This document shows positions 5,923 through 33,220 of a DNA stretch of 33,220 nucleotides, one piece after another. Position numbers and translations under genes: made by a program. Each line of letters opens with the position of its first letter. Position 1 is the stretch's first letter. The notes beneath the pieces were generated by a model that was not told the origin of the DNA, searched no databases, and saw only the letters and a list, made by a program, of their open reading frames with translations. This DNA comes from a virus, in the IMG/VR virus record IMGVR_UViG_3300046028_001730, positions 1 through 33,220 of that record; one strand, given 5' to 3'.

Positions 5923-5937
5923 TACCGGAGACTGATG

Positions 5938-6453
5938 ATGTCTGAGCCTTCCGACCCAGCCGACCAAATTGCCGCCGAGCAACAGAAGCCCCGAAAGAAG
6001 ATGGGGCGACCATCCAAGTACACCCAAGAGCTAGCCGCAGAGATATGCGAGAGACTATCTAACGGAGAGCCATTACGACGTATATGCAGAGACGACCATA
6101 TGCCGTCGTGGGTCAGTATTTACGCTTGGGCTGCTGCCGATAAGGAACTTTCTGAACGCATCGCACAGGCGCGTGAGCAGGGCGCTGACGCCATCGCTGA
6201 GGAGGCGCTGGAGATCATCGACACGCCGCCCGAGTACGTCCTGACCAAGACCGGCGAATCCGTTGATTCGGGCTATGTGACATGGCAGCGCAACCGCGCC
6301 GACCTGCGCTTGAGGCTGCTGGCTAAGTGGCACCCAAAGAAGTACGGCGACCGCCAGATCTTGGCTGGTGACGCTGAGAACCCGCTGACGACTAGCCCCG
6401 ACGCCTCCTTTGTGGCTGACCTGATCGCCAAGATCGAGGCGACAAAGCGGTGA
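5938..6453 (+). CDS. terS: Terminase small subunit
   Basis: This is the DNA-recognition subunit of the packaging motor. The 171-residue protein has a basic linker with GRPSKYT (residues 23-29), then a helix-turn-helix region (about 29-68: ELAAEICERLSNGEPLRRIC, then WVSIYAWAAADKELSERIAQ). This is typical of Sf6-type small terminases, which form rings that bind the packaging site. The C-terminal part (KWHPKKYGDRQ) fits the same family. ATG 5938 is chosen because CGGAG lies 7-8 bases upstream; ATG 5935 is an alternative. It directly precedes the large subunit, separated by one small gene. Confidence 0.85.
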   Translation: MSEPSDPADQIAAEQQKPRKKMGRPSKYTQELAAEICERLSNGEPLRRICRDDHMPSWVSIYAWAAADKELSERIAQAREQGADAIAEEALEIIDTPPEYVLTKTGESVDSGYVTWQRNRADLRLRLLAKWHPKKYGDRQILAGDAENPLTTSPDASFVADLIAKIEATKR

Positions 6454-6626
6454 CCCCGCGAGAGTTCATTGAGTGGTTCCGGGACGATCAGAAGATCGAC
6501 GGGATGCGCGTCGCTGGCATCATGACCCCGGAAGGCATGATCGACCTTGATGACATCACCGACGAGGAGGCCGAGGCCATCGCCGAGAAGATCATGTTCT
6601 GTTACAGCACTAGGGGCAACGCATGA
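6450..6626 (+). CDS. Small acidic protein between terminase genes, 58 aa
   Basis: It starts at GTG 6450 in a GTGA overlap with the small terminase and ends in an ATGA overlap with the large terminase, which strongly supports the frame. The product is acidic, with a tail of alternating Asp/Glu and Ala (DDITDEEAEAIAEKI). No motif is recognised. Its position suggests a packaging-accessory role or simply a spacer gene; function unknown. Confidence 0.6.
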   Translation: MTPREFIEWFRDDQKIDGMRVAGIMTPEGMIDLDDITDEEAEAIAEKIMFCYSTRGNA

Positions 6627-8134
6627 CCGAGCCTGTCGTTGACCGCAAGGTAGCCGCCGAGTATGCGCAGCAGGAGATCAAGACCCTGCTGGACTGCTCG
6701 CTTGAGGAGAAGCTTGCCAAGCTCCCCCGGATACAGCGGATCGCCTACGAGTGGCGCTTGCGCTGGCTGGTATCGGCTCACAAGCATCAGATCCTACCTG
6801 CCGGTGACGCTTGGACGATCTGGCTGATGCTTGCAGGCCGGGGTGCCGGGAAGACCCGCACCGCAGCCGAGCAGCTAGGCTGGTGGGCATGGAGCGAGCC
6901 AAATACCCGCTGGCTGGTGGCGGCTCCGACCAGTTCGGATGTGCAGGGCGTCTGCTTTGAGGGTGAGTCAGGGCTGCTGTCCGTCATCCCGCCTGAGTTG
7001 ATCAAGGATTACAAGGTGCAGAAGTGCGAGATCCACCTGATCAACAAGTCCATCATCAAGGGCATCCCGGCGTCCGAGCCTGAGCGGTTCCGAGGCCCGC
7101 AGTTCCACGGTGGCTGGTTCGACGAGTTGGCTGCGTGGGATTACATCGACGATGCGTGGGACATGATCCAGTTCGGTCAACGTCTGGGCGACCGAGTCCG
7201 CCAGATAGCCACCACGACCCCGAGGCCGAAGGCGCTGATCAGGAGCCTGATTGCCCGCAACGGCAAGGACGTAGCCGTCACGACCGCCTCGACCTATGAC
7301 AACATTGACAACCTCGCGCCGCAGTTCCAGCAGCAGATCCTGCAATACGAGGGCAGCAAGATCGGGCGACAGGAGATCTACGCCGAGCTTCTGAACCCGG
7401 AAGAGGATGGCATCATCAAGCGCCAGTGGCTGAAGGTCTGGCCTGCTGATAAGCCGCTGCCCGAGTTCGAGTACATCATCATGTCGCTCGACACCGCATT
7501 CACCGAGAAGACCACCGACAAGAAGGGCGACGCCGACCCGAGCGCCTGTTCGGTCTGGGGCTACTTCAAGCACGACAAGAAGCCCGCTATCCTGCTGCTC
7601 GACTGTTGGGAGGAGCATCTAGGCTTACCTGACCTGATCGCTCGCGTGAAGCAGGAGATGAGCGTCCAGTACGGTCAGGGCGACATGAAGCCAGTGATTA
7701 AGCCGATGATTGGCCCGAAGTCATCTTACCTCGTAGGCCGCAAGCCTGACCTGCTGCTGATCGAGGACAAGGGATCGGGTATTAGCCTGCGGCAGATGCT
7801 GGCGAGAGAAGAGATCCTCGCCTACCCGTACAACCCCGGCAAGGCAGACAAGCTGGCTCGACTGCATATGGTCTCGCACATATTTGCGCATGGTTATGTT
7901 TGGGTGGTAGAGTCTGAAAAGCGTCCGGGTCAGATCAAGACTTGGGCGGAGCCGCTTGTAGCGCAGCTTTGCAGTTTTACTGGCGAGCGGTCGATCAAGC
8001 ATGACGACCTGATGGACTCGACCACGCAAGCAGTCCGCTTCCTAAGCGACCGCAATATGCTAACGGTCACAGTCAAGCAGCTTGAGCGCAAGATCGCACC
8101 GCCGAAAGAATACGTCAATCCGTATGCAATCTAA
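6623..8134 (+). CDS. terL: Terminase large subunit (packaging ATPase and nuclease)
   Basis: The 503-residue packaging motor drives DNA into the capsid and cuts concatemers. The ATPase domain has Walker A GRGAGKT (72-78), Walker B ending WFDE (D167, E168) and a TTTP coupling motif (197-200). The RNase H-like nuclease domain shows D290 in IMSLDTAF, the acidic pair E381-D382 in LLIEDKGSG, and D461/D462 in KHDDLMDS. All expected catalytic residues are present and the length is normal for the family, so it should be active. It belongs to the Terminase_6 type. The start is in an ATGA overlap. It works with the portal encoded next. Confidence 0.95.
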   Translation: MTEPVVDRKVAAEYAQQEIKTLLDCSLEEKLAKLPRIQRIAYEWRLRWLVSAHKHQILPAGDAWTIWLMLAGRGAGKTRTAAEQLGWWAWSEPNTRWLVAAPTSSDVQGVCFEGESGLLSVIPPELIKDYKVQKCEIHLINKSIIKGIPASEPERFRGPQFHGGWFDELAAWDYIDDAWDMIQFGQRLGDRVRQIATTTPRPKALIRSLIARNGKDVAVTTASTYDNIDNLAPQFQQQILQYEGSKIGRQEIYAELLNPEEDGIIKRQWLKVWPADKPLPEFEYIIMSLDTAFTEKTTDKKGDADPSACSVWGYFKHDKKPAILLLDCWEEHLGLPDLIARVKQEMSVQYGQGDMKPVIKPMIGPKSSYLVGRKPDLLLIEDKGSGISLRQMLAREEILAYPYNPGKADKLARLHMVSHIFAHGYVWVVESEKRPGQIKTWAEPLVAQLCSFTGERSIKHDDLMDSTTQAVRFLSDRNMLTVTVKQLERKIAPPKEYVNPYAI

Positions 8135-8143
8135 GAGAGTGAC

Positions 8144-10678
8144 ATGGATGAAATGAACGAAAAGCGCCCCGACCCCAAAGATCCAGCGGGCGAGATATTC
8201 GACCTAGGTCAAGAGGAAGAGGATGTCGTTGACACCGAGGATGGTGGCGCGATAGTCAAGATCAGCGACGAGCCGCTACCCGGAGAATCGCCGTTCTACG
8301 AGAACCTCGCTGAGACCTTGCCAATCTACGAGTTGGCAACGATTGGCACCCAACTGTCTGATCTTGTTGAGAGGGACAAGGAAGCCCGTAAGCGCCGCGA
8401 CGAGCAGTACGAGGAGGGCTTGCGTCGCACTGGTCTGGGCGATGATGCCCCCGGTGGCGCAGGTTTCGTTGGCGCAAGTCGTGTCGTGCATCCGATGCTG
8501 ACTGAGGCCTGCGTAGACTTCTCAAGCCGGATGATGAAGGAAGTCTTCCCTGCCGGTGGCCCCGCCAAAGAAAAGACCATCGGCGAGATGTCAAAGGAGA
8601 AGTTCGAGAAGGCGCAGCGCATCACTAAGTTCATGAACTGGCAGATGACGCGCCAGATGCCTGAGTTTCGCGCCGAGATGGAGCAGATGTCCACCCAGAT
8701 GCCATTGGGCGGTGTGCAATACCTGAAGCTCACATGGGATGGACGGCGTAAGCGCCCGATCCCGACCTTCGTGTCCGTGGACGATGTCTACCTGCCGTTT
8801 GCCGCGACTAACTTCTATACCGCCGAGCGTAAGACGCACGTTCAGTACATCACTAAGCTGGAGTATCAGCGCCGTGTCCGCTCGGGTATGTACCGAGACG
8901 TAGACTTGTCGCCCGCGCCGATTACGCCGGACATGAGCAAGTCCGAGACCGCGAACAACAAGATCGAGGGTCGTGATGGCGGCTCCTATAACCCTGACGG
9001 GCTGCGCACGATCTTCGAGATCTATGTCCAGTATGAGCTTGACGACGATCCTTCCCCGTACATCATCACGGTAGACAAGGCGACCCAGCAGGTGTTGTCG
9101 ATCTACCGCAACTGGGACGAAGAGGACGAGCTACGCGAGGAACTGATCTGGATGATCGAGTTCCCGTTCCTGCCGTGGCGTGGTGCCTATCCGATTGGCC
9201 TGACTCATATGATCGGTGGCCTGTCTGCCGCTGCTACAGGCGCACTGCGGGCGCTGCTCGACTCCGGTCACATCAACAACTTCCCCGGCCTGCTGAAGCT
9301 CAAGGGCGGCGGTGCTGGCGGCGAATCGACCCGTGTTGACCCGACCGAGGTGCATGAGATCGAGGGTAGCTTCGCGCAAGATGACATCCGTAAGGTCATG
9401 ATGCCGCTACCGTTCAACCCGCCTAGCCAAGTGCTGTTTACCCTGCTCGGCTTCCTTGTGGATGCCGCCAAGGGTGTGGTGCGCACCTCGTTTGAGGATC
9501 TGGCTGATAGCAACGCCAACACCCCGGTAGGCACGACGCTCGCCCGCATGGAGCAGGGCATGGTGGTGTTTAGCTCAATCCACGCTCGGGTGCATGATGC
9601 GATGTCTCGCCTGCTGGAGACCCTGTACCGCATCAACAAGATGTACATGGACGAGCAGGAGGTTTTTGACGAGACCGGCGAGTTGCTGGCCTATCGCGCC
9701 GACTTTGATGGCCCCGTCAACGTCATGCCGGTGTCCGATCCGAACATCTACTCAGAGATGCAGCGGTTCGCGCAGGTTCAAGCAGTCGTTGCTCGGGCGC
9801 AAGCCATGCCGCAGTTGTACGACGTTCGTGCGGTAGAGAAGCTGCTGCTCCAGCAATTGAAGATCCCAGAGGGCGACTCGTTGTTGGTGCCGAAGCCAGA
9901 AGTCAAGGAGATGAATGCGGTCAACGAGAACCTTGCCGCTTCAATGGCGAGACCGATTGTGGCCTTCCCGGAGCAGGATCACCTTGCTCACTTGCAAGTC
10001 CATTTAGACTTCATGCGCTCGCCGGTTCTTGGCTCGGCTCGAACTGCGGCTGGTACTTCGTTGCCAATCCTGCTAGAGCATTGCAAAGAGCATATGGTGC
10101 TTTGGTATGTGACGCACATGATCAACGTCACCTCCGAGGCCGCTGGCGTCGATGTTGGTACGTTGCTAAAGGACGCCAACAAGGAAGAGCGAGCCGAGTT
10201 TGACCGGATGCTGGCGGCTGCAAGCCAGTCGGTAATCAACGAGGCGAACTCGACGATGGAGCAGATTCCAAAGATCATCGAAGAGCTTATCGGCTATATG
10301 CAGTCGATCCAGCCTCCGCCGCCGCCTGACCCAACGGCTGAGATCGCGCAAGCGGAGATTCAGCGCAAGCAACAGGCAGACGCTGCGAAGGCGCAGACCG
10401 ATGCCGCCAAGATCCAGACCGAGCAGGCAAAGCTCCAGCAGCGCCAGCAGGAAAGCGCCGCAGCCTTGCAGCAGAAGATGGAAGAGTTGAAGCTGCGGAT
10501 CGCAGAGGCTCAGATGCGCGAGCAGGGAGAAGATGCTCGCAAGCAGGCAGAGCTTGCAGCCCGCATGAAGATGAACGCCGACGACAATACGACAGCCAAG
10601 CAGCTTGCCGCGCTGGAGATTGCCGCTGGCGAAAGAATTGCTGTGTCAACTGGCACTGGCATAAACCCCAACCCGTAA
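8144..10678 (+). CDS. Portal protein
   Basis: This 844-residue protein follows the terminase directly, the usual place for the portal, the dodecameric ring through which DNA enters and leaves the head. The N-terminal 45 residues are acidic. The core contains ASRVVHPMLTEACVDFSSRMMKE and KAQRITKFMNWQMTRQMPEF, typical of long portals of podovirus-like environmental phages. From about residue 724 a Pro run (PPPPPDP) leads into a Gln/Ala-rich coiled coil to about 830, which fits the C-terminal barrel that long portals extend into the capsid. The start codon has AGAGAG upstream. Confidence is high from size, context and family likeness. Confidence 0.88.
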   Translation: MDEMNEKRPDPKDPAGEIFDLGQEEEDVVDTEDGGAIVKISDEPLPGESPFYENLAETLPIYELATIGTQLSDLVERDKEARKRRDEQYEEGLRRTGLGDDAPGGAGFVGASRVVHPMLTEACVDFSSRMMKEVFPAGGPAKEKTIGEMSKEKFEKAQRITKFMNWQMTRQMPEFRAEMEQMSTQMPLGGVQYLKLTWDGRRKRPIPTFVSVDDVYLPFAATNFYTAERKTHVQYITKLEYQRRVRSGMYRDVDLSPAPITPDMSKSETANNKIEGRDGGSYNPDGLRTIFEIYVQYELDDDPSPYIITVDKATQQVLSIYRNWDEEDELREELIWMIEFPFLPWRGAYPIGLTHMIGGLSAAATGALRALLDSGHINNFPGLLKLKGGGAGGESTRVDPTEVHEIEGSFAQDDIRKVMMPLPFNPPSQVLFTLLGFLVDAAKGVVRTSFEDLADSNANTPVGTTLARMEQGMVVFSSIHARVHDAMSRLLETLYRINKMYMDEQEVFDETGELLAYRADFDGPVNVMPVSDPNIYSEMQRFAQVQAVVARAQAMPQLYDVRAVEKLLLQQLKIPEGDSLLVPKPEVKEMNAVNENLAASMARPIVAFPEQDHLAHLQVHLDFMRSPVLGSARTAAGTSLPILLEHCKEHMVLWYVTHMINVTSEAAGVDVGTLLKDANKEERAEFDRMLAAASQSVINEANSTMEQIPKIIEELIGYMQSIQPPPPPDPTAEIAQAEIQRKQQADAAKAQTDAAKIQTEQAKLQQRQQESAAALQQKMEELKLRIAEAQMREQGEDARKQAELAARMKMNADDNTTAKQLAALEIAAGERIAVSTGTGINPNP

Positions 10679-11079: not shown

Positions 11080-11499
11080 ATGCTATTGGAAAACCCTATT
11101 GAAATGCAGTATGACTCACTGGATGACGCCTTCCCTGCTGTGGATTGCGGTATTGATCCCCTAGGTTCGCGGGTAATCGTTCAGATTCGCAGGGCAAAGC
11201 AGCAGACCAAGTCGGGGCTGTATATCCCTGAAGAGGCTCGCAAGACAGAAGCAAGCAACACGCAGGTTGCCAAGGTAATTGCTATCGGGGCGCTAGCATA
11301 TCGCAACAGAAACACGATGGAGCAGTGGCCTGAAGGCGCTTGGTGCGCGATTGGTGACTTTGTCCGCAGCCCGAAGTACGGCGGCGACCGCTGGACGGTG
11401 ACGCACGACGAGGAGGAGATCGAGTTTGTCATGTTTAACGACTTGGACATTCTCGGCAAGGTGACTGGTGATCCGACCAAGATCAGGGCTTTTATCTAA
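11080..11499 (+). CDS. GroES-like co-chaperonin (Cpn10 family)
   Basis: The 139-residue protein contains the Cpn10 signature in order: PLGSRVIVQIRRAKQQTKSG (27-46), GLYIPEEARKTEASNTQVAK (46-65) as the mobile loop region, then VIAIG (66-70). It is longer than GroES (about 97 residues) with N-terminal and C-terminal additions, as in phage co-chaperonins such as T4 gp31 and RB49 CocO. These cap host GroEL to fold the major capsid protein. Its place just before scaffold and capsid genes supports that role. The ribosome binding site GGAGAG precedes ATG 11080. Confidence 0.82.
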   Translation: MLLENPIEMQYDSLDDAFPAVDCGIDPLGSRVIVQIRRAKQQTKSGLYIPEEARKTEASNTQVAKVIAIGALAYRNRNTMEQWPEGAWCAIGDFVRSPKYGGDRWTVTHDEEEIEFVMFNDLDILGKVTGDPTKIRAFI

Positions 11500-20392: not shown

Positions 20393-23300
20393 ATGGCGAT
20401 TGTCATTATTACAAAAAATAGTTCTGCTGCTGGCGTTGCGCCGTCATCGGGGCAGCTTGTTCAGGGCGAACTCGCCGTTAACGTAACCGACAGAAGGCTG
20501 TATACGCTAGACTCAACTGGCGCGGTTGTTCTGATTGGCGCTGGCTCGACCTTCCCAAATGACATCGTAGTCAATGGCGTTACCGTTGGTCGTGGCGCTG
20601 GCAATGTAGTTACTAACACTACGCTTGGTAACGCTGCGCTTGCACTTAACACTACAGGCGCGAACAATACAGCTATTGGCTACCAAGCCTTAGACGTTAA
20701 TACGACAGGCCAAAGAAACACAGCCGTAGGCGCTGAAGCTTTAACCGCAAATACTACTGGTGTACAAAATACGGCAGTAGGTTTTCAGGCGCTTGATGCA
20801 AATACAGCTGGCACAGCCAACGTAGCCGTTGGGGATTCGGCGCTTGGCGCGAATATTGTTGGGTCAAATAACGTAGCTATTGGTACTTCTGCTTTGCTGG
20901 CAAATACAGCCAATAACAACATTGCTATTGGTAGTTCTGCTGGCGACGCAATTACCACTGGTAACCAAAACATAGCCATTGGCACTAATTCACTTGGCGC
21001 AAATTCAGTTGGCAATACCAATGTAGCTATTGGTCATAATGCTTTGTTACTTGCAACCTCAAGCGATAACGTAGCGATTGGCGCGTTAGCCGGTGATGCA
21101 ATCACTACTGGTAGTTCAAACGTTGTTATCGGCACAAATGCTGGCGGCGCACTAACCACTGGATCTAGCAACATTGCAATTGGTAACGGAGCCGGAGATG
21201 CGGCAACTACTGCAACTGGAACTATTGCAATTGGTACTAATGCGCTTGGCCTAAACACTGCCATCGACAACATTGCAATTGGCAATGCTGCCGGTGATGC
21301 AATCACGACTGGCCTCAATAATTTGGCTATCGGCACTAATGCGCTCGGGGCTAACGCAACCGGATCAAATAACATTGCTATTGGTAATAACGCTTTGCTT
21401 CTAGCAACCGTTGACAGCAACATAGGAATTGGCGTAGCCGCAGGCGATGCTATTACGACTGGTACTCAAAACATAGCAATCGGCGCAAACGCTCTCGGAG
21501 CAAACTCTACCGGCTCCAATAACATTGCTTTTGGTCAGAGTGCTTTGTTGCTTGCGACTTCAAGCAATAACATTGCAATCGGTGCTTTGGCAGGCGATGC
21601 CATTACGACTGGCGTTAATAACCTAGCGATTGGTACAGATGCTTTGGGTGCAAACGCTACCGGAACAAACAACATCGCCATCGGTCAAAACGCACTGCTT
21701 CTAGCTACCTCAAGCAACAACGTAGCAATTGGCGCATTAGCTGGCGATGCAATAACAACAGGCGTTCGTAATATTTTGATTGGGTCAAATGCCGGTAGCG
21801 CCATAACTACCGGCATTAACAACATCGCCTTTGGCATGGATGCTGGTGACGCAATTACCGTTGGAAGCAACACAATTGCCATTGGTACAGATGCTCTTGG
21901 GTTAAATACGGCTGACAATAACATCGCCATCGGCAACGCTGCTGGAGATTCGCTTACTACAGGCACTCCAAACTTGGCAATTGGCAATAATGCTTTGGGT
22001 GCAAATGCAACGGGTATCAACAACATCGCGCTTGGTCAAAATGCACTGATTTTGGCGACATCAAACGACAACATTGCAATTGGTGTTTCGGCTGGAGATG
22101 CGATCACTACAGGCACAACAAACTTGGCTATTGGCACTGATGCACTCGGCGCAAACCAAACCGGCGTTGACAACATAGCCATTGGTCATAACGCTCTTTT
22201 GCTGGCAACTGGAAGTAGCAATGTCGCGGTTGGCCCAAGAGCAGGTGACGCAATTACTACGGGTGCGCAGAACATTCTCATGGGCGTTAATGCTGGAACT
22301 GCTCTAACAACCGGAACAAACAACGTTGCTTTGGGTCATGCAGCGGGTGATGCCGCAACAACGGCTATTAACACCATCGCGATTGGCACAAATTCCCTTG
22401 GTCTTAACACTGCTGATAACAACATTGCTATTGGCACTGGCGCTGGCGACGCACTGACCACTGGCACACCGAACCTAGCGATTGGCACTGATGCTCTCGG
22501 TGCAAATCAAACCGGCATTAACAACGTCGCTATTGGTCAAAACGCACTGCTTTTGGCGACTTCCAGTGACAACGTAGCTATTGGTGCTTTGGCAGGCGAT
22601 GCTATTACCACTGGTAACTCCAATATCGTTATTGGCACCAATGCTGGCGGCGCGTTGACGACTGGTTCTAGCAATATCGCGATTGGTAATGGTGCGGGGG
22701 ATGCTGCGACAACTGCGGTTAGCACCATTGCTATCGGTAGTAACGCTCTTGGCTTAAATAATGGCAGCAACAACATTGCTATCGGCAATGGCGCTGGTGA
22801 TGCGCTGACCACTGGCATCAATAATTTAGCAATTGGCTCAGACTCTCTTGGGGCAAACCAGACTTCTAATAACTGTATTGCTATTGGTAATAATGCACTT
22901 CTTTTGGCAACTTCCGGAGATAACATAGCCATTGGGGTTCAATCTGGCGACGCAATTACCACCGGCACTAATAATGTGGTTATCGGAACGAACGCTGGCG
23001 GTGCCTTAACCACGGGTGTTAATAATATTGCGATTGGTATCTCCGCCGGAGATGCGGCAACAACAGCGATTAATACCATTGCGATAGGCACTAACGCACT
23101 TGGTCTTAACACTGCTGATAACAATATAGCTATTGGTAACGGTGCTGGTGACGCACTAACTACTGGTACGCTGAACTTAGCTATCGGAACTGATGCTCTC
23201 GGTGCAAACGCTACCGGAACAAACAACATTGCTTTAGGTAATTCCGCATTATTGCTTGCCACATCCAGCAATAATGTTGCCATTGGTGTCGCTGCCGGTG

Positions 23301-26300
23301 ATGCTATTACTACGGGCAATTCAAATATCGTAATTGGTACAAATGCTGGCGGTGCTTTAACTACGGGCGCGGACAACATTGCAATAGGTGTTAACGCGGG
23401 TGATGCGGCAACAACGGCAATAAACACTATCGCTATCGGAACCAACGCGCTCGGTTTAAACACCGCAAACAACAACATCGCTATCGGTAACGGCGCTGGT
23501 GATGCAATTACGACTGGTACTCCAAACCTAGCAATCGGCACAAATGCATTAGGCGCAAACGTTACCGGCATCAACAATATTGCGCTTGGTCAAAATGCAC
23601 TGCTTTTGGCTACTGCCGACAATAATATAGCAATTGGTGCGTTGGCAGGGGATGCGATTACTACAGGCTTTCAGAATGTAATGATTGGCACAAACGCCGG
23701 AACGTCCATAACAACAGGAACGGATAACGTTATCGTAGGACACGCAGCAGGCGACGCTATCACCACTGGAGTCGGCAACGTACTACTAGGCACCAATGCT
23801 GGCGGCGCTTTGACTACAGGCTTAGGCAACATCGCTATCGGTCTCGGCGCTAGTGCTACAGCAATTACCGCACTCGGCACTATAGCAATTGGTGTAGACG
23901 CTCTTAGCCTTAACACTGCCAATGACAACGTAGCAGTAGGTCTTTATGCCCTTAATCTCAATACTACGGGCAATAACAATGTAGCAATAGGCAGCAGCGC
24001 TCTTTATTCCAATACTACAGGCAATAATAACGTTGCCATTGGCACTAATGCGCTTAATGTTAATACTATCGGAGTGGACAACGTAGCAATTGGCGTTAAT
24101 GCGCTTGGCTCCAATACTACTGGTATTTACAACTTAGCAATCGGTAGGGCTGCGCTTCAAAGCAATACAGATGGAAATTACAACATTGCAATTGGCTATT
24201 CCTCATTAGCTTCCCATGCTCAGGGCAACAGCAATATTGCTATTGGACTGCAATCGTTAACATCAAATACTTTTGGTACTCAAAACGTCGCCGTCGGAAC
24301 TAACGCATTACAAAATAATAGTACCGGCACTCGAAATATTGCTATAGGTGATCAAGCGCTTTTAAACAACACTGTTAGTTCTAATGTCGCCATTGGTTCT
24401 GATGCACTGTCTTTAAATACTACGGGGTATTACAATACCGCCGTTGGCACTTTCTGTCTTGCAAATAATGTAACTGGTTTTTTCAATACTGCTGTTGGAA
24501 CTAATTCCCTTAACTCCAACAGCGATGGCTCATTTAATACTGCCGTTGGCAGTAATTCCCTTACCTCCAACACTACTGGCACTCGAAATATTGCTATAGG
24601 TGATCAAACGCTTTTAAACAACACTACTGGCTCATTTAATACTGCCGTTGGCAGTAATTCCCTTACCTCCAACACTACTGGTGTTCGAAATACTGCTATA
24701 GGTGATCAAGCGCTTTTAAACAACACTACTGGCACAGATAATGTCGCCATTGGTGCGTATGCTCTTGCAACTAACACTGCCGGTGCTAATAACATTGCAA
24801 TTGGCAAAGAAGCTATGCAACTTGCCAATGGCGGCAGTCAAGCCGTTGCTATTGGCTCTAATGCATTAGAGAACAATCAAGCCAATAACAATATTGGTAT
24901 TGGCTTTAATTCCTTAACTCTAAATACCACAGGCGCAAACAATGTCGCCGTTGGTGCCGCTACCCTGTCAAGCAACTTGACTGGTTCCAATAACGTCGCT
25001 ATTGGAGACAACGCACTTACTGCGGCTACATCGAGCAACAACGTAGCGATTGGTACTGCTGCTGGTGACTCCATTACTACCGGCAACAGTAACATTCTTA
25101 TTGGGTCAAGTGCTGGCACCGCACTAACTACTGGCTCCAACAACATTGCAATTGGCAGAGATTCTGGTGATGCCATCACTACTGGTACTGCAAACGTAGC
25201 CATTGGTACCAATTCGCTTGGCGCAAACCAAACAGGCCAAAACAATATTGCGATTGGTGATAGCGCACTTGTTCTTGCGACTTCAAGCAATAACATTGCA
25301 ATTGGTGCGCAAGCAGGCGATGCGATTACAACTGGTAATGCAAACGTACTTATCGGAACAAACGCTGGCGGTGCTTTAACTACCGGCGGAAGTAACATCG
25401 CTATTGGCGACAGTGCTGGTGATGCAGCAACGACTGCAACTGGAACTATTGCTATTGGCACCAATGCGCTTGGCCTCAATACCGCTAGCAACAACATTGC
25501 CATCGGTAACGGTGCTGGTGATGCTTTAACTACCGGCACTCCAAACCTTGCAATCGGAACTAATGCTCTTGGCGCAAATGCTACTGGCATCAATAATATT
25601 GCAATTGGACAAAACACCTTAGTGCTTGCTACCTCAAGCAACAACATCGCTATCGGTGCGTTAGCTGGAGATGCAATAACGACGGGCGGATTGAATGTAT
25701 TGGTTGGAACGGACGCTGGTGGCGGCATTACCACGGGTGCCAACAACACGATGGTAGGCCACAACGCTGGCTCTGCCGTAACCACAGGTACTGGTAACGT
25801 CATCATCGGTCAGGGCGCGGCAGCCAGTGCGGTGGGCGGTGTTAACCAGATCGTGCTTGGCAACGGCGTTACCGGACAGGCTGACAGCAACGTCACCATT
25901 GGCTCCGCTGCCGGTAAGATTTACAACGCCTTTACCGTTAACGCGACATGGACGTTTACATCGGATGAGCGTCTAAAGACCGATGTTAAAACAGCGCCGC
26001 TGGGACTTTCCTTTATCAAAGACTTGAAGCCGGTTACTTACCGTTGGAAACCGTCCTACGAGATTCCAGAAGAGTTGTATGACTGGTATAACGAAGAAAA
26101 CCTGCGAGACACAGAAACCGTCATGCATGGAATGCTTGCTCAAGATGTCAAAGCCGCTCTTGATAAACAAGGCGTTACTGATTTTGCTGGATGGGATGTC
26201 CAGCGTGATGGCACCCAGTGCATATCGCGTGAAATGTTTGTCATCCCGCTGATCAAGGCGGTTCAGGAACTGGCAGCAGAAGTTGAGTCATTGAAATCCC

Positions 26301-26314
26301 AACTCCCAAAATAA
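20393..26314 (+). CDS. Giant tail fibre with YadA-head-like repeats and S74 chaperone domain
   Basis: The 1973-residue protein begins with a virion-anchor pattern (APSSGQLVQGELAVNVTDRR, then LYTLDSTG). From about residue 90 to 1840 it is an almost unbroken series of about one hundred 16-17 residue repeats of the N-N-[IV]-A-I-G-x-x-A-[GL] type, close to the trimeric YadA/Hep_Hag head fold. The C-terminal 117 residues are a peptidase S74 intramolecular chaperone domain with SDERLK starting at S1857 (the expected self-cleavage serine), then KPVTYRWK and HGMLAQDVK. That domain trimerises the fibre and is then cut off. It most likely makes a very long trimeric host-binding fibre. The ribosome binding site GGAGGCTTAA precedes ATG 20393. 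Confidence 0.88.
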   Translation: MAIVIITKNSSAAGVAPSSGQLVQGELAVNVTDRRLYTLDSTGAVVLIGAGSTFPNDIVVNGVTVGRGAGNVVTNTTLGNAALALNTTGANNTAIGYQALDVNTTGQRNTAVGAEALTANTTGVQNTAVGFQALDANTAGTANVAVGDSALGANIVGSNNVAIGTSALLANTANNNIAIGSSAGDAITTGNQNIAIGTNSLGANSVGNTNVAIGHNALLLATSSDNVAIGALAGDAITTGSSNVVIGTNAGGALTTGSSNIAIGNGAGDAATTATGTIAIGTNALGLNTAIDNIAIGNAAGDAITTGLNNLAIGTNALGANATGSNNIAIGNNALLLATVDSNIGIGVAAGDAITTGTQNIAIGANALGANSTGSNNIAFGQSALLLATSSNNIAIGALAGDAITTGVNNLAIGTDALGANATGTNNIAIGQNALLLATSSNNVAIGALAGDAITTGVRNILIGSNAGSAITTGINNIAFGMDAGDAITVGSNTIAIGTDALGLNTADNNIAIGNAAGDSLTTGTPNLAIGNNALGANATGINNIALGQNALILATSNDNIAIGVSAGDAITTGTTNLAIGTDALGANQTGVDNIAIGHNALLLATGSSNVAVGPRAGDAITTGAQNILMGVNAGTALTTGTNNVALGHAAGDAATTAINTIAIGTNSLGLNTADNNIAIGTGAGDALTTGTPNLAIGTDALGANQTGINNVAIGQNALLLATSSDNVAIGALAGDAITTGNSNIVIGTNAGGALTTGSSNIAIGNGAGDAATTAVSTIAIGSNALGLNNGSNNIAIGNGAGDALTTGINNLAIGSDSLGANQTSNNCIAIGNNALLLATSGDNIAIGVQSGDAITTGTNNVVIGTNAGGALTTGVNNIAIGISAGDAATTAINTIAIGTNALGLNTADNNIAIGNGAGDALTTGTLNLAIGTDALGANATGTNNIALGNSALLLATSSNNVAIGVAAGDAITTGNSNIVIGTNAGGALTTGADNIAIGVNAGDAATTAINTIAIGTNALGLNTANNNIAIGNGAGDAITTGTPNLAIGTNALGANVTGINNIALGQNALLLATADNNIAIGALAGDAITTGFQNVMIGTNAGTSITTGTDNVIVGHAAGDAITTGVGNVLLGTNAGGALTTGLGNIAIGLGASATAITALGTIAIGVDALSLNTANDNVAVGLYALNLNTTGNNNVAIGSSALYSNTTGNNNVAIGTNALNVNTIGVDNVAIGVNALGSNTTGIYNLAIGRAALQSNTDGNYNIAIGYSSLASHAQGNSNIAIGLQSLTSNTFGTQNVAVGTNALQNNSTGTRNIAIGDQALLNNTVSSNVAIGSDALSLNTTGYYNTAVGTFCLANNVTGFFNTAVGTNSLNSNSDGSFNTAVGSNSLTSNTTGTRNIAIGDQTLLNNTTGSFNTAVGSNSLTSNTTGVRNTAIGDQALLNNTTGTDNVAIGAYALATNTAGANNIAIGKEAMQLANGGSQAVAIGSNALENNQANNNIGIGFNSLTLNTTGANNVAVGAATLSSNLTGSNNVAIGDNALTAATSSNNVAIGTAAGDSITTGNSNILIGSSAGTALTTGSNNIAIGRDSGDAITTGTANVAIGTNSLGANQTGQNNIAIGDSALVLATSSNNIAIGAQAGDAITTGNANVLIGTNAGGALTTGGSNIAIGDSAGDAATTATGTIAIGTNALGLNTASNNIAIGNGAGDALTTGTPNLAIGTNALGANATGINNIAIGQNTLVLATSSNNIAIGALAGDAITTGGLNVLVGTDAGGGITTGANNTMVGHNAGSAVTTGTGNVIIGQGAAASAVGGVNQIVLGNGVTGQADSNVTIGSAAGKIYNAFTVNATWTFTSDERLKTDVKTAPLGLSFIKDLKPVTYRWKPSYEIPEELYDWYNEENLRDTETVMHGMLAQDVKAALDKQGVTDFAGWDVQRDGTQCISREMFVIPLIKAVQELAAEVESLKSQLPK
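20660..25915 (+). repeat. Array of ~50-bp coding repeats in a higher-order ~400-bp pattern
   Basis: The basic unit is 48-51 bases (16-17 residues). Units are ordered in a higher pattern: AGDAITTG, ALGANATG, NALLLATSS, AGDAITTG, AGGALTTG, AGDAATTA, ALGLNTA, repeated seven to eight times. Codon choice differs among copies, so most duplications are old or maintained by selection at the protein level. Confidence 0.9.
24527..24730 (+). repeat. Two nearly identical 102-bp direct repeats inside the fibre gene
   Basis: 24527-24628 and 24629-24730 differ at only a few positions. Each spans two 17-residue units starting GGCTCATTTAATACTGCCGT. A further partial copy of the second half lies near 24330-24376. 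This is much closer DNA identity than elsewhere in the array, pointing to recent duplication. Confidence 0.85.
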
Positions 26315-26322
26315 GGAAAGTT

Positions 26323-27012
26323 ATGAACGATATGCGCAAAGTAATGATCGCAACGCCCGCCTATGACGGGAAGGTAGATGCTTTATTTGCGGACAGCTTG
26401 GTAAACACGATCAAGCTTGGATTGATTCACGGGATTAATTTTTGCCCTATTTACATTGCAAACGATGCGCTTATCCAACGAGCTAGGAATGACTTGGCAA
26501 AGATTGGCGCGTCAGGCGAATTTGAATGCATGGTTTGGATAGATTCTGACCTTGCGTGGGAGCCGCAGTGGGTCATGGATTTGGTGAACTACAAAGAGGA
26601 TGTTGTCGGCGGAACGTATAGGAAAAAAACAGACACCGAGGAGCTATACGTTGTCGTTACTGAGTCAACTCAGGTTGAGGACAACGGCTTGATCAATGTC
26701 TTGGGTCTTGGCACTGGTTTTGTGAAGGTGTCCCAAAAGGCCGCAAAAGATGTTTTTGATGCCTCCATGCCTTACAAGAACACTGGCGGCAGAGACAGCC
26801 ACATGGTTTTTGATATTGGCATTGTGGATGGCGAATTGCATAGCGAAGACACTATGTACTTCCACAAGCTAAGGAATTTGGGTTATGAGGTTTGGCTTGA
26901 CCCAAAGATGACCTTGGATCATGTTGGTACTAAGAAATTTGTCGGCAACTTTGAAAACTACCTAAAGAGCATTCAGCCGCCAGAGAATGTTCATCAGGTT
27001 AAATTTGGATGA
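26323..27012 (+). CDS. Glycosyltransferase family 2-like protein (GT-A fold)
   Basis: The 229-residue protein has a nucleotide-sugar-binding pattern: MIATPAYDGKV near the start, ANDALIQRARNDLAK, then MVWIDSDLAWEP with a D74-S-D76 metal motif. VVGGTYRKK, GLGTGFVKVS (about 127-137) and SEDTMYFHKLRNLGYEVWLD with H200 in LDHVG complete a GT-A/GT2-like catalytic core. The start is ATG 26323 after AAGGAAAGTT (ATG 26332 is possible). It follows the fibre gene, so it may glycosylate the fibre or another virion protein, or alter host surface sugars. No membrane span is present. The donor and acceptor cannot be read from sequence. Confidence 0.8.
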   Translation: MNDMRKVMIATPAYDGKVDALFADSLVNTIKLGLIHGINFCPIYIANDALIQRARNDLAKIGASGEFECMVWIDSDLAWEPQWVMDLVNYKEDVVGGTYRKKTDTEELYVVVTESTQVEDNGLINVLGLGTGFVKVSQKAAKDVFDASMPYKNTGGRDSHMVFDIGIVDGELHSEDTMYFHKLRNLGYEVWLDPKMTLDHVGTKKFVGNFENYLKSIQPPENVHQVKFG

Positions 27013-28082: not shown

Positions 28083-28366
28083 ACGAATCAACTGACTGGA
28101 TGACCACTAAATGGCGACCCATGATGGCGATAACCTACATGATTATCTGCCTGTGTGATTTTGTGCTATTCCCGATCTTGTGGACGATTGTTCAGTTTTG
28201 GGAAACTGAAGCAGCTAATGATGCCTTCCGTGAGTGGACTTCTCTGACCTTGCAATCTGGCGGCTTCATCCACATCACCTTTATGGCAATCCTCGGCATC
28301 TCTGCTTGGACTCGCGGGCAGGAAAAGATTGAGTCGATTAAAGCCGGGAAAGAAGAAAATGCCTAA
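28079..28366 (+). CDS. Putative holin, 95 aa
   Basis: This starts in an ATGA overlap. It has a polar start (STDWMTTKWRPMM) followed by hydrophobic spans around residues 16-40 and 60-78 and a charged C-terminus (RGQEKIESIKAGKEEN). The WRPMM...YMIICLCDFVLFPILW pattern resembles the GTA/3TM-type holin family. It lies directly upstream of spanin and endolysin genes, the usual place. A holin would form inner-membrane lesions that let the endolysin reach the wall. Confidence 0.75.
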   Translation: MNESTDWMTTKWRPMMAITYMIICLCDFVLFPILWTIVQFWETEAANDAFREWTSLTLQSGGFIHITFMAILGISAWTRGQEKIESIKAGKEENA

Positions 28367-28859
28367 CCCCTACGTCATTATCGGTGCGCTTGTTTTTGCT
28401 ATCTGCTCATATTTCTACGGGCATCATACGGGTGTGCAGGTAACTAAGGCGGAGTGGGAGGCAGAGAAAGCCACGGCAGCTATTGAGGCTGGCAAGGTGC
28501 TAGCAGCGGAGCAGGCCAAGGTCGCTGAGTTTGAGCATCTGCTGGCAAATGCACAAAACAGAGTGGAGAAGGTCTATGTTGACAAAGTTAGAACAGTTGA
28601 AGTGGAGCGCAAGCAGCTTGTTGATGTTGCTCGTACTGACGGGCTGTTCATCGACGCCTCGTGTCCAGACAGTAATAACGCCGTGTCCAGTCCTGCCGCC
28701 AGTCCCAGCAGCGATCATGGAGGAGCGAAAGCCCGACTTTCAGGAGCGGCTGCGGAAGCTCTTATTGCCATCGCAGCCGACGCAGACGAAGTCACCCACC
28801 AACTAAACGCCTGTCAGGAGATATTGAGAAATGAAAGAGAACTTCCAAGAAGCCCTTAG
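28359..28859 (+). CDS. Inner-membrane spanin subunit, Rz-like
   Basis: ATG 28359 is chosen because GGGAAAGAAGAAA lies upstream and an N-terminal membrane span (PYVIIGALVFAICSYFYGHH) follows directly. Residues about 28-90 form a charged, Ala-rich coiled coil in the periplasm, as in i-spanins. The Rz1-type lipoprotein gene is nested within it in another frame, the classic Rz/Rz1 arrangement. Together they span the periplasm and fuse inner and outer membranes at the last lysis step. Identity rests on architecture and nesting rather than sequence likeness. Confidence 0.82.
   Translation: MPNPYVIIGALVFAICSYFYGHHTGVQVTKAEWEAEKATAAIEAGKVLAAEQAKVAEFEHLLANAQNRVEKVYVDKVRTVEVERKQLVDVARTDGLFIDASCPDSNNAVSSPAASPSSDHGGAKARLSGAAAEALIAIAADADEVTHQLNACQEILRNERELPRSP
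28576..28806 (+). CDS. Outer-membrane spanin lipoprotein, Rz1-like
   Basis: This 76-residue frame lies fully inside the Rz-like gene. ATG 28576 has GGAGAAGG upstream. A short basic start and hydrophobic stretch end in a lipobox (LLVLTGC, lipidated C24), followed by a Pro-rich segment (TPCPVLPPVPAA), as expected for o-spanins. The mature protein would be about 53 residues, a usual Rz1 size. It would sit in the inner leaflet of the outer membrane and bind the Rz coiled coil. Confidence 0.85.
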   Translation: MLTKLEQLKWSASSLLMLLVLTGCSSTPRVQTVITPCPVLPPVPAAIMEERKPDFQERLRKLLLPSQPTQTKSPTN

Positions 28860-29343
28860 CGCCATCCTCAAGCACGAAGGAGGCTTTGTAAACCACCCAA
28901 AAGACCCCGGTGGCATGACTAATCTTGGCGTGACCAAGAAGGTCTGGGAAGAGTGGGTAGGCCATCCGGTTGACGAGAAGGCGATGCGGGCGCTGACACC
29001 GGAGACTGTCTCCCCGATGTACCGCAAGAAGTATTGGGACGCTGTTAAGGCTGACGACCTGCCGGACGGTCTGGATTACCTGATGTTCGACTTCGCTATC
29101 AACGCTGGCCCCGGTCGGGCGATCAAGACCATGCAGAAGGCTATTGGAGCCACCCCAGACGGCGCAATTGGCCCCAAGACCATGCAGGCATTAAAAGATG
29201 CCAATCAGGGCGAGTTGGTGGCAAAATTCAGTGCAGAAAAAGAGGCGTTTTATCGCAGCCTGCCTACGTTTGGGACGTTTGGAAAGGGCTGGTTGCGTCG
29301 TGTAGCTGAGGCTAAAACCCATGCCGAAACTATGATCGCATAA
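28831..29343 (+). CDS. Endolysin, GH108 N-acetylmuramidase with peptidoglycan-binding domain
   Basis: The 170-residue lysin cleaves glycan strands of peptidoglycan. The GH108 signature HEGGFVNHPKDPGGMTNLGV includes the catalytic E16. KYWDAVKADDLPDGLDYLMF and FAINAGPGRAIKTMQKAIG continue the family pattern; the C-terminal part (DGAIGPKTMQALKD) matches a type 3 peptidoglycan-binding domain. No signal peptide is present, so it depends on the holin. It overlaps the end of the Rz-like gene by 29 bases and has its own GGAGATATTGAGAA ribosome binding site. Length is normal for the family. Confidence 0.92.
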   Translation: MKENFQEALSAILKHEGGFVNHPKDPGGMTNLGVTKKVWEEWVGHPVDEKAMRALTPETVSPMYRKKYWDAVKADDLPDGLDYLMFDFAINAGPGRAIKTMQKAIGATPDGAIGPKTMQALKDANQGELVAKFSAEKEAFYRSLPTFGTFGKGWLRRVAEAKTHAETMIA

Positions 29344-30016: not shown

Positions 30017-31144
30017 ATGAGTGTTTTTACAAACATCTTTGGTGGTAGCAATATTTCGCCAAGTAGCGTTTCTTATAGCTCAGTTACTCTATCTGCGCTG
30101 GAAACGGAATTTTATTGGCCTGTTGAAACATCGGCAAATGCTAATCTGATTTCAACAATCATGGACGTTACCAGCAATACTGCTGGCAATGCGATTGTTC
30201 TTGCGTCTGCCGAAGAGGTGTCTACTGGACAGACAATCCTTTTCACAAACGTTGGGGCTAACGCTTTTATCGTCAAGGATTTTTCTGGCACCCAAATACT
30301 TAACGCAAACCCCGGAACCTCTTGGCAAATTTATCTTACTGACAATACAACGCCTGCCGGTGTTTGGCAAAGCTTCCAATACGGCGCGTCTGTTTCCTCT
30401 GTAAATGCTTCTGCGCTTGCTGGTAACGGCATTGTTGCTCTGGGGTCGTTGCTGGCGCAGTCGATGCCGGTAAACACATACATTGGGAACTATTCAATAC
30501 TTGTGCCAGATCGGGCGCAAACGTTCTTGTGGTCTGGTGGCGTTGGTACGCTAACCTTGCCTCTTGCTGGCCTTGCTGGGAACAATTGGTTTGTCCAATT
30601 TAAGAACGCAGGAACTGGGCAAGTCACTATTGCTACTCAAGGCACCGACACCATCGACAATGCGAGCAGCATCAGTCTACAGCCTTTAGATTCTTGCATT
30701 GTCCTAACGGACGGCGTTAGCTATTACTCTCTTGGTCTCGGTCAATCTGCAATTTTTGCATTTGACTACACCACAATCAATGTCGCTGGATCTGGCGACT
30801 ATGTGTTGGTTGGCGCGGAGCTAAACAGGGTTGCATATGAGTTTACCGGCGTATTGACTGGTAACAGAAACATCATTGTCCCGAATACGGTTCAGCAGTA
30901 TTGGGTTAGGAACCTAACGACGGGTGCCTTTACCTTTACCGTCAAGACCGCCACAACTTCTGGCGTCGTGGTGCCACAAACAATTTCCACCATTTTGTAT
31001 TGCAACGGCAACCAAGTCGTCTCAGCAGAAACCTCTGCGTATCCAATCCCGCTGCCGGTAAACCAAGGCGGAACCGGAGCTACAAACGCAGTTAACGCTG
31101 TAATTAACTTAGGCCTGAACCCACTTGATGGCGGGGTATTCTAA
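30017..31144 (+). CDS. Putative tail appendage or fibre-base protein, 375 aa
   Basis: The protein is beta-rich with low charge. The first 135 residues (SSVTLSALETEFYWPVETSA, GQTILFTNVGANAFIVKDFS, WQIYLTDNTTPAGVWQSFQY) look like a virion-binding domain. The end carries NQGGTGATNAVNAVINLG, a motif found near the ends of N-terminal parts of tail fibres. Unlike the 20393 product it has no S74 chaperone and stops shortly after this motif, so it may be a fibre base on which other fibres assemble, or a shortened fibre. The gene overlaps the next by one base (TAATG). Confidence 0.65.
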   Translation: MSVFTNIFGGSNISPSSVSYSSVTLSALETEFYWPVETSANANLISTIMDVTSNTAGNAIVLASAEEVSTGQTILFTNVGANAFIVKDFSGTQILNANPGTSWQIYLTDNTTPAGVWQSFQYGASVSSVNASALAGNGIVALGSLLAQSMPVNTYIGNYSILVPDRAQTFLWSGGVGTLTLPLAGLAGNNWFVQFKNAGTGQVTIATQGTDTIDNASSISLQPLDSCIVLTDGVSYYSLGLGQSAIFAFDYTTINVAGSGDYVLVGAELNRVAYEFTGVLTGNRNIIVPNTVQQYWVRNLTTGAFTFTVKTATTSGVVVPQTISTILYCNGNQVVSAETSAYPIPLPVNQGGTGATNAVNAVINLGLNPLDGGVF

Positions 31145-32772
31145 TGGCTGTTCCCGTAATTATTAGACCAAAGCCCGGAATTAAGCGGGATGGCACAAAG
31201 TTTGAGGGTGACTACTACGTTGACGGTCAGTGGGTAAGATTTCAGCGCGGGTTGCCACGAAAAATTTTTGGCTATAAGGCGGTCAGTAATTACCTGACAG
31301 AAATAAGTCGTGGTTTAAAAATTTACACTGAGGATGCAAGCACATACATCCACTCTGGCAGCGCAGAGTATTTGGAAAGATTTTCGCTTGATATAAACGG
31401 CAACGCTAGTGCAGTTGTAGACAGAACGCCGGTCACCCTGAATTACAGCCAGAACAATGCTTGGCAATTTGATGTCTTGTACGACTCCATCAGCTTAGTT
31501 CCATCAAACAAAATTATTGCCCAAGTAGCTGAGAACGGCGGGTCGCTGTACAACTCAATAGGCGGTCAACTCTTCGTTGGCGATATACGCTCTCCAGATC
31601 GTCTGGTCGAGATTCCTCAGCCCTCTGGAGTTTCTTTTAGCGGCGGTGTTTGCGTACTCCACCCGTTCCTTACGGTATTTGGCACAGATGGCTCTCTCGG
31701 CTGGTCTGTTCCGGGTAACCCATCGGACTTGACCGGATCTGGCTCCGGCAACGCTCGCATAGCGGCTCAGAAAATTGTGCGTGGCTTACCGCTCCGTGGT
31801 GGCCCCGGCAACGCTCCTGCGGGCTTGTATTGGTCTACAGATGCGGTTGTCCGCGCCTCCTTTGTCGGCGGGAACCAGACCTTTCAGTTTGACACCATTA
31901 GCTCACAAAGCTCGATCCTCTCACCCAACTCCGTCATTGAGTATGACGGCATCTATTTTTGGTGCGGGGTTGACCGCTTCCTTATGTTCAACGGTGTTGT
32001 TCGGGATGTGCCGAATGACCTTAACATTAATTATTTTTTTGAAGGCTTGAACCGCGAGGCATCGCAGCGGGTTTTTGCGTTCAAGGTTCCAAGGTTTGGC
32101 GAGATTTGGTGGTGCTATCCAAGAGGAAATGCCACCGAATGTACTCATGCGGTCATCTATAACGTCCGCGAAGATACTTGGTATGACACGCAGCTACCAA
32201 ACAGCGGAAGGTCTGCCGGTGACTTTGCTACGCAATTTGCCGCACCATTTTTGAGTGGCGTTGACTTCAACAACAATAAGCCGCCGCCAGATGAGCGGAT
32301 TACGGAGGCTGGCGACATCCGAATTACAGAAGTCAACGACATCCGAATTACTTACATCAATGACAACTACAAGTTCTGGGAACATGAGACTGGCGTAAAT
32401 GAGACAGACATAAGTTACCAAAATGCTATCCAGAGTTACTTTGAGACTTCGGACATTAGCAACTTAGTCCTCAATGGGAAGAACAGGTCGTTGCGATGCG
32501 AATTGCTGGAGCCAGACTTTGTCCAGACGGAGAACATGACGGTTCAAATCATGGGTAGGGCAAACGCCAGAGCAAAAGAGATTTCTGGGGAAGTAAAGAC
32601 GTTTAATGACAATGCGACAACGCCGTTTGAGCAGGTTGTGTTTTTTAAGGAAATCCGCCGGGAGATGCGCTTCAGGTTTGAGTCCAACATCATTAATGGC
32701 GACTACCAGATGGGGCAGGTAATTGCCCACATTTCAGAAGCTGACGGAACTGTACTTGGGGCGACAAATTGA
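31144..32772 (+). CDS. P22 gp10-like tail protein (DNA stabilisation / tail hub)
   Basis: The 542-residue, beta-rich protein begins VPVIIRPKPGIKRDGTKFEG followed by YYVDGQWVRFQRGLPRKIFG and has repeated beta-propeller-like segments, including DGIYFWCGVDRFLMFNGVVR and REDTWYDTQLPNSG. This pattern is typical of P22 gp10 / T7 gp12-type nozzle proteins that close the neck after DNA packaging and support short-tailed particles. An insert at about residues 383-406 is a three-unit octapeptide repeat (RITEAGD / IRITEVND / IRITYIND). The previous gene overlaps it by one base; the next starts in a TTGA overlap. Confidence 0.75.
   Translation: MAVPVIIRPKPGIKRDGTKFEGDYYVDGQWVRFQRGLPRKIFGYKAVSNYLTEISRGLKIYTEDASTYIHSGSAEYLERFSLDINGNASAVVDRTPVTLNYSQNNAWQFDVLYDSISLVPSNKIIAQVAENGGSLYNSIGGQLFVGDIRSPDRLVEIPQPSGVSFSGGVCVLHPFLTVFGTDGSLGWSVPGNPSDLTGSGSGNARIAAQKIVRGLPLRGGPGNAPAGLYWSTDAVVRASFVGGNQTFQFDTISSQSSILSPNSVIEYDGIYFWCGVDRFLMFNGVVRDVPNDLNINYFFEGLNREASQRVFAFKVPRFGEIWWCYPRGNATECTHAVIYNVREDTWYDTQLPNSGRSAGDFATQFAAPFLSGVDFNNNKPPPDERITEAGDIRITEVNDIRITYINDNYKFWEHETGVNETDISYQNAIQSYFETSDISNLVLNGKNRSLRCELLEPDFVQTENMTVQIMGRANARAKEISGEVKTFNDNATTPFEQVVFFKEIRREMRFRFESNIINGDYQMGQVIAHISEADGTVLGATN
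32293..32361 (+). repeat. 24-bp tandem repeat within the gp10-like gene
   Basis: Three in-frame units code for R-I-T-E/Y octapeptides. The second (32314-32337) and third (32338-32361) share the first 14 bases, GACATCCGAATTAC; the first is more diverged. Confidence 0.75.
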
Positions 32773-32996
32773 TAACTTTGCCAGTTATAATTGGTTTAAG
32801 GGATTGGGCAGATCAGATCGTACTCGACCTAGATGAATATGGCCCCATCCCCCGGCTGGTTGACGAGAGCAGGTGGCAGGAGTGGGCTGTCGCCTTTTGC
32901 GTTATCTCTGGGATCAGTCAGAAAAACCCCCCAAGCCCACTTCAATTCTCAGACTGGCGTGAATGGGCTAGTCGCTTCGCACAGGTGATGGCATGA
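32769..32996 (+). CDS. Small conserved phage protein, 75 aa (TTG start)
   Basis: The frame starts at TTG 32769, within a TTGA overlap with the gp10-like gene, and ends in an ATGA overlap with the next gene, which supports it. It has two Trp-containing helical segments with a repeated theme (LRDWADQIV; SDWREWASRFAQ). I recall short W-x-x-W-A helices in small proteins next to tail genes of environmental phages, function unknown. The ribosome binding site GGGGCGAC is weak. Confidence is moderate because of the rare start codon. Confidence 0.6.
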   Translation: MITLPVIIGLRDWADQIVLDLDEYGPIPRLVDESRWQEWAVAFCVISGISQKNPPSPLQFSDWREWASRFAQVMA

Positions 32997-33220
32997 CTGA
33001 GCAAGACTTTATGACGCTGCTGAACGCAGTAGCGAAGATAGCAAAACCCTTTAACGGCGAATACAAGGATATTACCTCAATGTCAGAAAAGCTTGCTGAC
33101 TCGGGGCTAGATAGCTTGGATATGTTGCTGACAAGTATTTATTTGTGTGATGTCTTTGATATTGACGAGGAGACCGGAAAGACTCTAAGTGCAACAAATG
33201 TTCAAGAGTTATTTGATTGC
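32993..33220 (+). CDS. Acyl carrier protein-like gene, 3'-truncated (first 76 residues)
   Basis: The ATG at 32993 overlaps the previous stop (ATGA). The 76 visible residues fit the carrier-protein helix bundle: helix 1 (EQDFMTLLNAVAKIAKPF), a loop, then LADSGLDSLDMLLTSIYLCD, where D40-S41-L42-D43 matches the DSL phosphopantetheine attachment motif, S41 being the modified serine. Helix 2 leads to VFDIDEETGKT and a last short helix. Carrier proteins hold acyl or aminoacyl groups as thioesters for synthases or transferases. A phage copy beside virion genes would need partner enzymes, which may follow beyond the window. The end is cut by the window edge. Confidence 0.75.
   Translation, partial: MTEQDFMTLLNAVAKIAKPFNGEYKDITSMSEKLADSGLDSLDMLLTSIYLCDVFDIDEETGKTLSATNVQELFDC

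Follow-up and report, generated by a model that had tools for sequence, protein, structure and literature searches.

Genes at the end of the window

The stretch of DNA analysed (hereafter the window), a virus record, is 33,220 bases long and contains terminase, portal, capsid, tail and lysis genes. Its last open reading frame is still open at the window end after 76 codons and carries the motif DSLD, whose serine is residue 41 (S41). As indicated in Table 1, this frame closes a block of closely packed genes: its ATG overlaps the TGA of the preceding frame (ATGA), and the TTG start of the latter overlaps the stop codon of the gp10-like gene. No Pfam family was found for the small protein encoded between the two. 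The gp10-like gene is conserved in relatives two to three genes upstream of a ketosynthase (KS) gene, and the protein at this position in the public record MW202545 is annotated 'phage stabilization protein'. No tRNA was found in the window, which therefore gives no host clue of this kind.

Table 1. Coordinates of the genes around the window edge, of their continuation in contig L002 and of the KS remnants.
Feature	Position	Strand	Basis or remark
Tail-fibre-like protein (cluster c5), farther upstream in the same block as the acyl carrier protein (ACP) gene	30017..31144	+	phrog_12796, E 2.1e-8
Virion structural protein, phage-stabilisation / P22 gp10-like kind (cluster c1)	31144..32772	+	phrog_3287, E 5.5e-31; synteny
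75-aa small protein of the virion module (cluster c8), started by TTG and overlapping the ACP gene as ATGA	32769..32996	+	synteny; weak PHROG match
ACP, residues 1-76 of 96, cut by the window end; S41 is the predicted phosphopantetheine site	32993..33220	+	ORF, L002 match, profile, model, conservation
Window edge	33217..33220	+	region beyond known from the near-identical contig L002
End of the ACP gene, beyond the edge	L002, to 10291		
KS, 370 aa, beyond the edge	L002, 10288-11400		
GNAT-like protein, 212 aa, beyond the edge	L002, 11403-12041		
Large protein (cluster c4), beyond the GNAT-like gene	L002, 12044 onward		
KS remnant (deletion scar)	L308, 1685-1789		neighbours kept
KS remnant (deletion scar)	L309, about 3900-3990		neighbours kept

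A scan of viral contigs with the window frame gave five relatives. One of them, L002, differs from the window at 6 positions over 10,227 bp (99.94% identity) and could therefore be read as its continuation. The full-length protein encoded there has 96 residues, and the start of the KS gene overlaps the end of the ACP gene, again as ATGA. The last base of the window (33220) is C whereas L002 has G, with TGG (Trp) as the last codon; this mismatch is perhaps a contig-end error, and the terminal C76 of the window frame is thus unsure. In L003, L004, L006 and MW202545 the gene order is the same as in L002, as far as each of them reaches.

Several other genes of the window deserve mention. Between the portal and capsid genes, positions 11080-11499 encode a GroES-like Cpn10 protein (PF00166, E 5e-11), and MW202545 has a 'chaperonin 10 kd subunit' at the corresponding place. 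The 1973-aa protein encoded at 20393-26314 contains many similar short repeats (NIAIG...ALGAN...) and ends with a Peptidase_S74 chaperone domain; it is perhaps a giant tail fibre or adhesin. In the lysis region, a 176-aa Rz-like frame (28329-28859) overlaps a 91-aa frame in another reading frame (28531-28806) that carries a lipoprotein-like box, LLVLTGC; the two look like a nested Rz/Rz1 spanin pair and adjoin a GH108 endolysin gene (28831-29343). A phrog_1574 protein (26323-27012) shows a weak glycosyltransferase match, below the cut-off, and the protein encoded at 2569-3174 matches Methyltransf_11 above the cut-off.

A carrier protein and its ketosynthase partner

The original prediction had read the last frame as an ACP-like protein on account of the DSLD motif at S41. 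Taken alone, this motif is weak evidence for an ACP: DSL[DE] occurs in 2 of the 205 stop-to-stop frames of at least 60 aa in the window. A Pfam search with the 76-aa frame as cut by the window end gave no match, and single full-length proteins matched the PP-binding family (PF00550) weakly (14.0 bits for L006, compared with a gathering score of 20.8); 17 of the 38 family members reached E≤1, the best value being 0.0027. A profile built from these 38 members matched 84 PDB sequences at E≤10 (best E 3.3e-4). Among the best 60 of them, all but 3mx9, which is another kind of protein, are named as ACPs or as ACP subunits of complex I, and the phage DSL serine aligns with the DSL serine of the ACPs in this match. 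The ACP also matches phrog_28189 (E 3e-4), and the median pI of these proteins is 4.4.

An AlphaFold model made from 37 sequences (pLDDT 86.0) has helices at residues 3-17, 41-54, 59-62 and 70-80, with short ones at 34-37 and 88-95. The fold is that of a carrier protein, and S41 opens helix II, so that the serine sits at the N-terminus of this helix. The 50 matches listed by Foldseek were all carrier proteins or chains of entries containing one, at E values of 0.04 or worse. VIA-align likewise gave carrier proteins or such chains in all 50 of its rows, the best with Z 8.5, rmsd 2.6 and 80 residues aligned. The serine, whose conservation the original prediction had left to be checked, was kept in 173 of 173 proteins among the matches listed. 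These data confirm that the frame 32993-33220 is real and support its reading as the start of an ACP gene, as had been proposed, and the conserved serine is the predicted phosphopantetheine attachment site of the putative carrier.

The prediction had further placed an enzyme that loads or uses the acyl group just to the right of position 33220. When the sequence beyond the edge was read in L002, a member of one of the enzyme classes named in advance was found there, a KS encoded directly downstream of the ACP. This protein passes both Pfam cut-offs (PF00109 and PF02801, 39.3 and 54.1 bits, compared with 20.8), and matches solved FabF chains in the PDB (E 6.5e-28) as well as phrog_35856 (E 8e-37). 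In a first set of 81 KS proteins, Cys130, His270, Lys298 and His303 were conserved in all 81; in a larger set of 171 among the matches listed, the Cys was found in 170 and His, Lys and His each in 171, the one exception having Arg in place of Cys.

We did not file the KS as a FabF (KAS II), since its score against the FabF equivalog TIGR03150 is 99.4 bits for a cut-off of 493.75 and the C-terminal GFGGTN loop of FabF is replaced by AGMGN[VI]Y in the phage proteins listed in an alignment to the bacterial KS of two metagenome-assembled genomes (MAGs). The position of the FabF gating Phe would presumably be occupied by Met. Because the GFGGTN loop is absent and the score lies far below the equivalog cut-off, the chemistry of the phage KS may differ from that of FabF. 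In a tree of 46 phage-type KS (including one, L086, described below) and 11 bacterial KS from the two MAGs, a long branch with a support of 100 separates the two groups, although the program issued long-branch warnings; in this sample, the phage KS thus appear to form a virus-only clade on a long stem. Eighteen further KS matches from a phage collection, other than MW202545, are 23-29% identical and come from unannotated records, many of them short; we judged them to be likely host FabF and did not count them.

Spread, relocation and loss of the pair

Scans of viral sequence with the KS as query yielded 229, at least 555, 322 and 151 stretches, of which the best 80 per scan were taken, so that all counts of the pair lean to close relatives. 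Of the 287 loci compared (L001, a piece of the window, being left out), 268 had a KS, and 179 distinct KS DNAs remained once identical ones were merged. Among the matches listed, an ACP gene lies directly upstream of the KS gene in 171 of the 171 distinct KS DNAs with room for it; of the 173 pairs scored, 119 show a 4-bp overlap of the two genes, counted from the ACP stop to the nearest KS start. Downstream of the KS, the 167 matches listed with room encode the GNAT-like protein in 119 cases, a small protein of cluster c27 in 45 and neither in 3. The usual order, found in most of the phages, is gp10-like, small protein, ACP, KS, GNAT-like, c4 and c6. Because the ACP gene occupies the same place in many phage contigs, a random host insertion was rejected, in agreement with the original prediction, which had relied on the ATGA coupling to tail genes.

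Two conserved peptides, patterns that can miss distant relatives, were used to search 84,980 prokaryote genomes and retrieved one close relative of the KS and one KS at 23% identity. The close relative (L086, positions 8001-9125) comes from a phage-like contig in a MAG that bears the label Balneolaceae; it is either a weak host hint or a binning error. No member of the FabD or FabG families was found in 16 long phage records; host enzymes would therefore be needed for these steps. The components are those of type II fatty-acid synthesis (FAS), and phage ACPs have been called auxiliary metabolic genes in two reports (PMC8224337, PMC11705849). The pair could accordingly be a general auxiliary one, in which a phage FabF and AcpP boost or tune host fatty-acid synthesis for membranes. 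We regard this as improbable: the KS is not host-like but forms a virus-only clade on a long stem, the prokaryote scan returned a single close relative, the gating loop is altered, and the phage's own ACP was always present where there was room among the matches listed.

The pair is not confined to the virion genes. In a nested group of the KS tree, characterized by c27, it lies behind a gene for a DNA helicase, and those contigs that were read have a primase gene farther upstream; the pair has moved from the virion block to the replication block as a unit. When 15 records, many of them short, were searched for the GNAT-like family, it was found in 5: four of the relocated group (G009, G012, G026 and G029) and one virion-block phage (G027). 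In the four former records the virion block consists of the gp10-like gene, the small protein gene (uncalled in one of them), the GNAT-like gene and c4, without ACP and KS. Of 17 records chosen among the relocated group and its neighbours, 4 had an AcpS above the Pfam cut-off, namely contigs L066, L069, L155 and L162 of the relocated group (PF01648, 54.2 bits for a cut-off of 25 in L066); of the 16 long records, 1 had an AcpS, G009, which is the record of L066. In one further locus, L094 (positions 5713-7112), the pair occupies a third setting: c4 and c6 genes lie on the other strand about 5 kb downstream, and no GNAT-like, c27, gp10-like or helicase gene was found near the pair. The idea of a virion-only role for the pair was dropped once the relocated group had been found.

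These observations also bear on whether the two proteins could be co-opted, non-catalytic parts, either structural or acting as decoys. Their location among virion genes in most of the phages would fit such a role, which we nevertheless consider hardly credible given that the catalytic residues and the ACP serine are almost invariant, that AcpS is encoded in some of the same contigs and that the pair also occurs in the replication block.

In searches with GNAT-like proteins as bait, a KS gene lay directly upstream in 36 of 36, 1 of 10 and 19 of 21 loci with room for it; the second set was obtained with a GNAT-like protein of the relocated group. Two loci of the third set, L308 and L309, had no such KS gene. 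Their alignments to L033 coincide, so that they seem to represent a single lineage. Between the small protein gene and the GNAT-like gene they retain only a KS remnant corresponding to positions 288-322 (35 codons), and no other KS match was found in their records of 5.6 and 23.3 kb, each an incomplete genome. Judged on these incomplete records, loss of ACP and KS is possible with the GNAT-like gene and c4 still in place, meaning that the pair is not indispensable; it also speaks against the GNAT-like protein closely requiring the pair. We therefore no longer considered that the GNAT-like gene strictly depends on ACP and KS.

Possible uses of the proposed acyl chain

Taken together, comparison of the sequences and models shows a predicted carrier whose attachment serine is invariant and a FabF-like KS in which the Cys-His-Lys-His set is conserved, the two being encoded by overlapping genes and co-inherited; it also shows that the pair moved, was kept and was once lost as a unit. 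The position of the ACP directly before the phages' own condensing enzyme suggests that a dedicated acyl chain is built during infection. We therefore favour, with moderate confidence, the reading that the last gene of the window supplies the ACP of a separable, phage-specific type II condensing pair, acting in trans and making a dedicated acyl chain used in infection. Action in trans is proposed because the pair is kept among virion genes and replication genes alike. In such a scheme, the ACP would be converted to holo-ACP by a phosphopantetheinyl transferase, that of the host or, for a few phages, an AcpS they encode themselves, and host FabD would load malonyl. The KS Cys would take an acyl group from host acyl-ACP or acyl-CoA and the enzyme would condense it with malonyl to beta-ketoacyl-ACP, which host FabG, FabZ and FabI could optionally reduce. 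The dedicated ACP would keep the chain apart from the host pool until its use during infection. Candidate destinations are a membrane or other lipid, protein acylation or a small molecule, of which a changed membrane lipid or an acylated target seem the likeliest.

The protein encoded after the KS in most of the phages is relevant to the last two. Its model (38 sequences, pLDDT 92.7) has the GNAT fold, with the order of helices and strands usual for GNATs. All PDB matches shown by Foldseek were acetyltransferases, 35 of them at E≤1e-3, and VIA-align placed it on acetyltransferases with Z 11.0, rmsd 3.1 and 123 residues aligned; no LuxI or HlyC structure was found among the 50 rows shown in each comparison. 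Its best match among viral proteins, at 42% identity, comes from an uncultured phage and is uncharacterised. The CoA-binding motif of GNATs is [RQ]xxGx[GA]. It was not found at a fixed place in these proteins, 7 of 117 matching it anywhere and at scattered positions, and we thus called them GNAT-like instead of filing them as GNAT enzymes. In view of the missing motif, the protein may use another donor, lack activity or serve a structural role; a shared fold alone shows no function.

LuxI and HlyC are examples of GNAT-fold enzymes that use ACP as the source of their acyl group. The GNAT-like protein could thus move a chain made by KS and ACP onto a virion or ejection protein, for example c4, and so aid membrane insertion at genome entry. 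In favour of this idea are the GNAT topology of the model and its structural matches, the GNAT-like gene directly after the KS in 119 of 167 matches listed, its presence elsewhere in the four records whose pair had moved, and a match to the DNA ejection protein family phrog_4287 farther downstream in L003 (13640-14635). On the other hand, the protein lacks the CoA-binding motif and may be no enzyme, the GNAT-like gene and c4 persist in L308 and L309 without the pair, the acylation site is hypothetical, and a hydrophobic 19-residue segment is present in only 29 of 65 c4 proteins. We hold virion acylation to be unlikely on balance. Its full form, in which phage ACP and KS, sometimes with AcpS, supply a GNAT-like protein that uses acyl-ACP, not acyl-CoA, to lipidate a virion ejection protein, is slightly less likely still; the virion would then bear a fatty acyl group synthesized by the phage's own enzyme, which would serve in membrane entry.

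Release of the KS product as a 3-oxoacyl amide or lactone, for instance by the GNAT-like protein, would instead yield a signal or toxin. The direct product of a KS is indeed a 3-oxoacyl-ACP, and LuxI-type synthases have a GNAT-like fold and use acyl-ACP; the genes, however, lie mostly in the virion block, and we give this possibility very little weight.

The components of the favoured condensing pair are of known kinds, and their arrangement seems new. The AcpP-FabF part of bacterial type II FAS likewise has an ACP gene directly before a FabF-like KS gene, the DSL serine and the Cys-His-Lys-His set; the phage side differs by having neither fabD nor fabG in the 16 records tested and by a KS that is shorter at the N-terminus (370 aa), has AGMGN[VI]Y for GFGGTN and falls in a virus-only clade. 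Rhodobacteraceae prophages carry fabG-acpP-fabF, which the authors of that report read as the E. coli arrangement (PMC8224337). The acpP-fabF order on phage DNA is common to both cases, whereas the present pair comes without fabG, is lineage-wide in phage contigs and lies in virion or replication blocks. Lone ACPs, called auxiliary metabolic genes or of unclear function, are described in Erythrobacter phage R6L (PMC5463345), Alteromonas phage R22Y (PMC11705849) and Vibrio phage R16F (PMC10152775), and the portions available of these accounts mention no partner KS. Other reports list an ACP in Acidobacteriota-linked vOTUs (PMC11924767) and in 2 of 153 entries of a cyanophage review table (PMC10452541), fabF in a Fonsibacter pelagimyophage (PMC7029224) and fabF/fabG/fabZ in deep viromes (PMC10653327). 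The Shark Bay paper (PMC6008428) has only a reductase, in a table, and the terms acyl carrier, fabF, oxoacyl and fatty acid were not found in the main text of PMC6802176, on a freshwater phage set. In the literature searched, preprints and most subscription papers aside, we found no phage lineage described as having its own pair of ACP and KS.

Earlier accounts of phage ACPs concern single genes, taken to be auxiliary metabolic genes whose use is unclear. Here a carrier and a condensing enzyme, distinct from the bacterial enzymes compared, are co-inherited across a wide phage group and kept on relocation with their catalytic residues intact; if active, they would constitute a viral acyl-chain pathway. 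The role of phage ACPs becomes testable, as the two proteins are small, soluble and can be expressed and assayed. Both PHROG families matched, phrog_35856 by the KS and phrog_28189 by the ACP, are listed as of unknown function. The same genes are present in Siphoviridae sp. ctpbd312 (MW202545), where ACP-like, KS and GNAT-like genes follow the stabilization protein gene; a function is given there for the KS alone, with a shorter start, and both of the other proteins are entered as 'hypothetical protein'.
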